Of a DNA stretch of 64,000 bases, positions 1,823 to 4,584 are shown piece after piece. A program made the translations under genes and the position numbers. The DNA is from Candidatus Methylacidiphilum fumarolicum. Lineage in GTDB: Bacteria; Verrucomicrobiota; Verrucomicrobiia; Methylacidiphilales; Methylacidiphilaceae. Where the stretch lies: contig NZ_OX458932.1 in NCBI RefSeq assembly GCF_949774925.1, positions 1,984,001-2,048,000 on the forward strand. The letters are read 5' to 3'. How positions within the stretch are numbered: the stretch's first letter is position 1; the number at the start of each line of letters is the position of its first letter. Under the pieces are notes generated by a model, which saw nothing but the letters and a program-made list of their open reading frames with translations, was not told where the DNA came from and did no database searches.

Positions 1823-1907
1823 TTTAATGATCCTTTAGAAATAATGGATGAGTAATCCTAGAGCATTGTCAAGAAATGTTTTCACAGGCAATGACAAATA
1901 CGAGTGA

Positions 1908-2136
1908 ACGCCGGGAAAGCCCACACTTTTAAGAGTGGGATGAGAGGCGGCTTCATTAAGTTGCAAATATCTAATGGTTGTGGTATAACATCTGGCCGTA
2001 GGGCTGGACCGGTCCGAACTAACGCCTCTGGAGAAGGAAGCCTCTGTTCGAATATTGGGAAGCAATCCCTATGTTCGAGTAAGCATGCCTTCGGTGAAAG
2101 AGGAAGCCCACCCTTTTAAAGGTGGGAGGAGGTCAC
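1908..2136 (+). ncRNA. HEARO/omega-RNA-like structured RNA element, solitary (no nuclease gene)
   Basis: About 230 bp of non-coding DNA with the layout I associate with HEARO RNAs (HNH endonuclease-associated RNA, the omega-RNA of IscB-type IS200/IS605 elements). It follows a GTGA tetranucleotide (1904-1907) and opens with a hairpin whose arms pair around 'CACTTTTAAGAGTG'. A central multi-helix region contains 'GGTCCGAACTAACGCC' and 'GAAGCCTCTGTTCGA'. It ends with a strong 3' hairpin, CCCACC-loop-GGTGGG (about 2108-2127), followed by 'AGGAGGTCAC'. Its base composition is richer in GC than its surroundings. No iscB, isrB or tnpB frame is adjacent. Matching to HEARO is from memory of the motif, not a covariance search. 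Confidence 0.62.
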
Positions 2137-2561
2137 TAAGTTTTCGTGAACCAATGGTAGAGCATAAAATAGACTAAAACGCCAGTGATTGACACATAAG
2201 CCCAGCTAGGCCAAAGCAATTTGGTAATCCGGGTATGCTTACGAAATTGGCCTGTGAGGGCATAGTAAACAGCAAAAAAAATAGCGGGTAGATTGACGAT
2301 GGCAAGAATGGTATGCGTTGTCAATATTGAAAAATAGACAGGCCTGGACCAATCGTGCCTAGGAAATGGAGTGGCTCCATGATAATAATGGTAAATGAGA
2401 TAACAAGTAAGAAACGCAATAGAGAGCCCCACAGCAATGAGCATCATCCACTTGTGCAAGTCCTGTCTGCCACGTTTAATGCTAATATAGCCAAACAAAA
2501 GAAAACAGAAAGTCAGGGCATTTAAAGAGGCATTAATAGCAGGCAAATCTTTTACTTGCAT
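2136..2561 (-). CDS. DUF420 family four-helix membrane protein
   Basis: A 141-residue integral membrane protein of the DUF420 (YozB-like) family, with four hydrophobic helices. Histidines lie at positions typical of this family: 'DLHKWMM', 'YLIYHYYHG', 'ILTTHTILA' and 'FRKHTRITK'. DUF420 genes commonly sit beside cytochrome c oxidase and SCO genes and are thought to help terminal oxidase biogenesis. Here the next upstream gene on the same strand is SCO1-like, which supports that role by inference. The TAG stop (2136-2138) straddles the junction with the HEARO-like element: its T and A are native, its G comes from the last base of the element. The original C-terminus may therefore have been longer. 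Confidence 0.85.
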   Translation of the reverse strand: MQVKDLPAINASLNALTFCFLLFGYISIKRGRQDLHKWMMLIAVGLSIAFLTCYLIYHYYHGATPFPRHDWSRPVYFSILTTHTILAIVNLPAIFFAVYYALTGQFRKHTRITKLLWPSWAYVSITGVLVYFMLYHWFTKT

Positions 2562-4117: not shown

Positions 4118-4584
4118 AAACCTCCTCGTGGGATACCCCTTCCCTTTAGGGAGGGGAGGGATAACGTCCAATGTGGGTATCCATAACCATCGTTACGATG
4201 GGTCCTCTTCGCCCGAGCGGGCGAGCAAGGCATCAAAGGCCGCTTTCGCTTATCTAATACGAACACATGAGAGCTTACGCTTCCTTTCCCGGTTATTTCC
4301 GGTGACGGAGCCTGGTTGGCGTTCCTGGCTCGCTCCCCTCGGGAATGTGCGCGACCACCTACCCGCTTACGCGAAAGAAGAAAACCTTCGGCGTTTTGCC
4401 TTTTGCCAGCATGATCCCCTTCTTCCAGTGTCCGGGACTGAGGAAGCATCCCGGAGTGGGTCTGCTGCCACCTAGCGCTCACGTAGTTACTTCTTTGCAT
4501 TGCCATCTGCTCCATAACTTACCCTGGTCAACCCGGCTTGCAGTTGTCTACAAGCCCATCCCATTTATGGGATGGGTAGTTGAC
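4118..4584. mobile_element. Non-coding IS200/IS605-like relic with a hairpin at each end
   Basis: About 465 bp inserted exactly between two ABC-transporter genes. The interior is clearly GC-richer than the neighbours and has no recognisable transposase or nuclease frame. Each end carries a subterminal hairpin of the IS200/IS605 kind. The right one has perfect 10-nt arms CCCATCCCAT / ATGGGATGGG (4555-4576) followed by TAGTTGAC. The left one has arms CCCCTTCCCT / AGGGAGGGG with one bulge (4136-4156). The interior shows several short hairpins, for example 'GCCCGAGCGGGC' at 4211-4222, and may be a structured RNA. The relic contributes the last residues and stop of the ATPase gene and the ribosome binding site of the permease gene. 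Family assignment rests only on end architecture. Confidence 0.65.

Follow-up and report, generated by a model that had tools for sequence, protein, structure and literature searches.

A 235-bp element with the features of an internally deleted IS200/IS605 transposon, inserted beside a DUF420 gene in Candidatus Methylacidiphilum fumarolicum

Transposons of the IS200/IS605 type can persist as remnants that no longer encode a transposase. The palindrome-associated transposable elements (PATEs) of Haloquadratum have been described as IS605 core deletions (PMC3119063), and a PATE-like bacterial element in Halanaerobium consists of the final 58 nt of tnpB between a left end (LE) and a right end (RE) (PMC7290912). 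In ISDra2, the region of the tnpB 3' end and the RE gives rise to a reRNA of ~150 nt that is bound by TnpB and takes ~16 nt of the 3' flank as its guide (PMC8612924). Here we describe an element in a window of 64,000 nucleotides from Candidatus Methylacidiphilum fumarolicum (contig NZ_OX458932.1, positions 1,984,001 to 2,048,000), by which we mean the whole stretch of DNA analysed. We regard it as almost certain that this element is a PATE, an IS200/IS605 MITE that arose by deletion between LE and RE, presumably spread in trans and left the neighbouring DUF420 protein unaltered. Its features are collected in Table 1.

Table 1. Features of the element and its surroundings (positions in the window)
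Feature	Position (strand)	Length	Basis
Target/left-flank pentamer AATAC	1897..1901 (+)		Flank comparison of seven copies and empty-site alignment
Whole element, read as a PATE/MITE (internally deleted IS200/IS605)	1902..2136 (+)	235 bp	Seven full copies, two gene-bearing split copies, empty sites in two sister genomes
Parental IS200/IS605 left end (LE), carrying the subterminal hairpin CCCACACTTTTAAGAGTGGG	1902..1989 (+)		LE match to decayed parents
Promoter-like sequence from the LE: TTGCAA - 17 bp - TATAAC, TGn before the second hexamer	1961..1989 (+)		Copy and relative comparison
RE block: tnpB coding 3' end plus right end, predicted TnpB reRNA/omega-RNA scaffold	1990..2136 (+)	147 bp	Translation, DNA match, consensus fold
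Right-end hairpin CCCACCCTTTTAAAGGTGGG, then AGGAGGTCAC (right cleavage end)	2107..2136 (+)		Highly conserved across copies and relatives
Native DNA, predicted guide position TAAGTTTTCGTGAACC, antisense to the DUF420 end	2137..2152 (+)		reRNA layout in PMC8612924
DUF420 gene; the insertion left its stop codon as it was	2136..2561 (-)		PF04238, 135.8 bits; empty-site comparison

Neither a transposase nor a nuclease gene lies within the element, whose last bases, up to 2136, are GGTCAC. Its RNA fold is equalled in stability by only 1 of 200 shuffles (z = -2.8). These properties agree with the original prediction of a discrete, structured and gene-less element at about 1904-2138. Where does it begin? 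All seven full-length copies in the genome start with GAGTGAAC (one with GAGAGAAC, one with GAGTGAAA) directly after TTTAC or AATAC, and all end in GTCAC; this places the left boundary at 1902 and not, as had been proposed, at 1908, and it moves the GTGA once taken for flanking DNA inside the element. The preceding pentamer is TTTAC at six of the seven copies and AATAC at the window copy, a difference that weighs against our reading but would be explained if the latter had mutated from the ATTAC seen in the sister genome L057. Insertion thus lies 3' of a fixed tetra- or pentanucleotide with no target duplication, and in the alignments both ends have subterminal hairpins and terminal inverted repeats are absent.

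When the complete genome (2,476,671 bases in a single contig) was searched at the DNA level, these seven full-length copies, 88-97% identical, were recovered together with two pairs of half matches, which prove to be the two ends of longer elements at 1490565-1491641 and 869375-873155. The interior of both split copies holds remnants of Y1_Tnp (tnpA) and TnpB (OrfB_IS605, Cas12f1-like_TNB), and the longer of the two is additionally interrupted by another IS200/IS605-type element. Short copies and gene-bearing split copies share the same ends: the window LE is 79-82% identical to the LEs of the decayed parents at 1490565-1490651 (+) and 873066-873155 (-) of the genome (G000). Because the half matches flank tnpA and tnpB remnants within longer elements, the short copies are the LE of this IS200/IS605 transposon fused to its RE. 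The description of the element as solitary therefore holds locally but not genome-wide, given the seven copies and two gene-bearing relatives. Element DNA was absent from 12 of 12 other genomes of the family that were searched.

Two further observations concern the resident copies. The main difference between the window copy and its six sister copies is one hairpin block at 2036-2090, part of which is nearer to the foreign relatives L077 and L080; recombination with another parent copy is a possible source of this block. In addition, another IS200/IS605-type element is represented in the genome by twelve full-length Y1 tnpA matches, most of them frames of 158 aa. Identity among the eight loci that were compared is ~97%, and several of the twelve matches have a linked tnpB with an internal TAG.

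Beyond this genome, open tnpA-tnpB frames accompanied by a nearly identical RE occur in other phyla, for example in a Bacillota bin (L079) and a Coprothermobacter bin (L080), and in both the left end of the intact element is preceded by TTAC. The RE block matches the RE of such intact elements at the DNA level with E-values down to 3e-34. The same RE lies at the 3' end of transposase genes of a Thermovirga plasmid and of Thermus phage phiLo, annotated as IS891/IS1136/IS1341 and IS605 transposases, and searches of plasmid and phage collections returned nothing beyond the RE of IS605-type tnpB genes.

A protein search showed that the C-terminal ~47 residues of the decayed TnpB are still encoded in the RE part of the short copies, mostly with an internal TGA. 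A fold alignment of fourteen RE sequences (the seven short copies, the two decayed parents and five foreign elements) gave a common fold of 42 pairs, with standard pairs in 97.1% of cells. Its covariation score lies above 500 of 500 shuffles, evidence that is weakened by the relatedness of the sequences and by coding constraint in the gene-bearing rows, and the number of double-change pairs (5) is not above chance. Variable columns are modestly fewer at paired (16/84) than at unpaired (25/73) positions, and relative to its sisters the window copy has paired changes at 58/102, 66/96 and 78/84. The block thus has both the position of a reRNA, at the tnpB 3' end plus right end, and a conserved fold; if transcribed, it would be expected to fold as a TnpB reRNA and to draw its guide from the DNA 3' of 2136. 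The original designation as omega-RNA-like was apt in kind, as a scaffold on a mobile element that lacks a nuclease, but missed the type, which is that of IS200/IS605 TnpB and not of HEARO/IscB; accordingly, the guide would lie on the 3' side and not, as suggested, 5' of 1908.

We also considered a resemblance to the HgcC RNA (RF00062) of Rfam. The match to 1999-2145 scores 18.1 bits, under the gathering threshold of 50, and that to positions 1639-1748 of L050 scores 23.5 bits, also below threshold; with the likeness limited to the terminal hairpin and the GGAGGUCA region, we rejected an identity with HgcC. Conversely, the 3' part of the HgcC consensus (the hairpin plus GGAGGUCA) resembles the IS605 right end of the element, and HgcC itself may be a relic of a TnpB reRNA. 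A literature search returned nothing that connects HgcC with an IS605 right end.

The original prediction instead took the locus for a solitary omega-RNA element of HEARO or IscB type whose guide would lie 5' of 1908, and held that its insertion may have created the present DUF420 stop. The RNA-like fold and the presence of true HEAROs and an IscB gene elsewhere in the genome speak for the former. HEARO membership calls for a covariance score at or near the gathering threshold (83 bits), however, and a permissive Rfam search with RF02033 returned zero matches at E<=10 over 1700-2400, while the same model scored 94.9 bits at a positive control within the window, 4327-4584 (-). With the left boundary also misplaced and the gene-bearing homologues that we read carrying tnpA and tnpB rather than iscB, we consider the HEARO/IscB assignment ruled out and give it next to no credence. 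The same holds for the idea that the insertion cut about 24 residues from DUF420, an extension that appears only because the left boundary was put at 1908. The element's last base (2136) does supply the G of the TAG stop codon, as had been noted. Yet when the flanks are joined at 1901|2137, they align gaplessly over 365 bases with the sister genomes L056 and L057 (93% and 91% identity), and the L057 empty site reads ATTAC|TAAG, not the anticipated GTGA|TAAG. Since the base before the element (C1901) is identical to its last base (C2136), the codon is TAG in filled and empty site alike, and in four sister species without the element DUF420 has the same C-terminus and stops at the same codon, TAG or TAA. 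The insertion left the protein unchanged; a shortening, excluded by the empty-site comparison, has a negligible chance of being right. The case carries a warning that an apparent capture of a stop codon hinges on exact element boundaries.

As to HEAROs proper, the genome has nine matches and one full-length RRXRR match, a 526-aa open frame at 1050938 just after the HEARO at 1050620-1050877. In the window, the HEARO at 4327-4584 (-) is followed at 4201-4266 (-) by a weak 22-residue match to the start of the N-terminal RRXRR domain of IscB (20.2 bits, under the cut-off); both sit between two ABC-transporter genes and are probably an IscB-type omega-RNA relic.

A different alternative accepts the IS200/IS605 origin and asks whether the element still works: the scaffold would be transcribed from the LE promoter, and the RNA would direct a TnpB from another locus to the empty site or serve at DUF420 as an antisense RNA or decoy. 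In all seven copies TATAAC/T stands 17 bp after a TTGCAA-like sequence and directly before the scaffold, and a similar sequence lies upstream of tnpA in L133, L089 and L080; judged by this comparison, 1961-1989 is presumably the former tnpA promoter. A strict promoter scan passed over the LE site because its rule requires T at the last base. The common fold, its covariation score and the paired changes of the window copy likewise favour a working RNA, but gene-bearing ancestors may have passed on the covariation, and paired columns are only modestly less variable. The genome yielded no intact cognate TnpB, and for this reason the element is most likely inert now; the other resident TnpBs compared share only about 23-30% identity with the TnpB of L079, the intact relative. 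We hold a still functional cassette to be improbable, and slightly less probable again the proposal that the deletion, by placing the tnpA promoter directly before the TnpB reRNA, produced a mobile guide-RNA cassette of 235 bp that takes its guide from each landing site and relies on a TnpB provided in trans. Transcription of the promoter-reRNA fusion, should it occur, would make the element a natural test of the ability of TnpB guide RNAs to act in trans.

For the PATE that we favour, the history almost certainly began with one internal deletion in an IS200/IS605 transposon. An LE of about 88 bp, which brought along its subterminal hairpin and the sequence resembling a tnpA promoter, was thereby fused to the 147 bp at the right, and the product then spread as single-stranded DNA to at least seven sites. 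Mobilisation would have been in trans, by a Y1 TnpA inserting 3' of TTTAC/TTAC with no target duplication; we infer this step from copy number and empty sites, since comparison of resident Y1 genes revealed no intact cognate TnpA.

How does the element relate to the described systems? With HEARO (RF02033) and the IscB omega-RNA it shares the character of a structured mobile-element RNA of an OMEGA system, and real HEARO copies reside in the same genome, but there is no covariance match, and the guide side and the nuclease differ. As with the reRNA/omega-RNA of ISDra2, its RNA region comprises the tnpB 3' end and the right end, is about 150 nt long and would continue into the 3' flank, which would supply the guide; unlike ISDra2, our element has no tnpB, its target is TTTAC rather than TTGAT, and its RNA is predicted from sequence. 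The PATEs of Haloquadratum and Halanaerobium are alike in keeping both subterminal palindromes, in having lost the transposase genes and in having known gene-bearing relatives, and the Halanaerobium element also retains the tnpB 3' end together with the full RE. By contrast, the LE is about 88 bp here and 28 nt there, and our element has a promoter-like sequence right before the RE block and is present seven times in a single type. Loss of the core from an IS200/IS605 element is thus an ordinary route to nuclease-free omega-RNAs, and the element, ordinary apart from the promoter-like sequence kept before its reRNA region, is a further family of the already described PATE kind.
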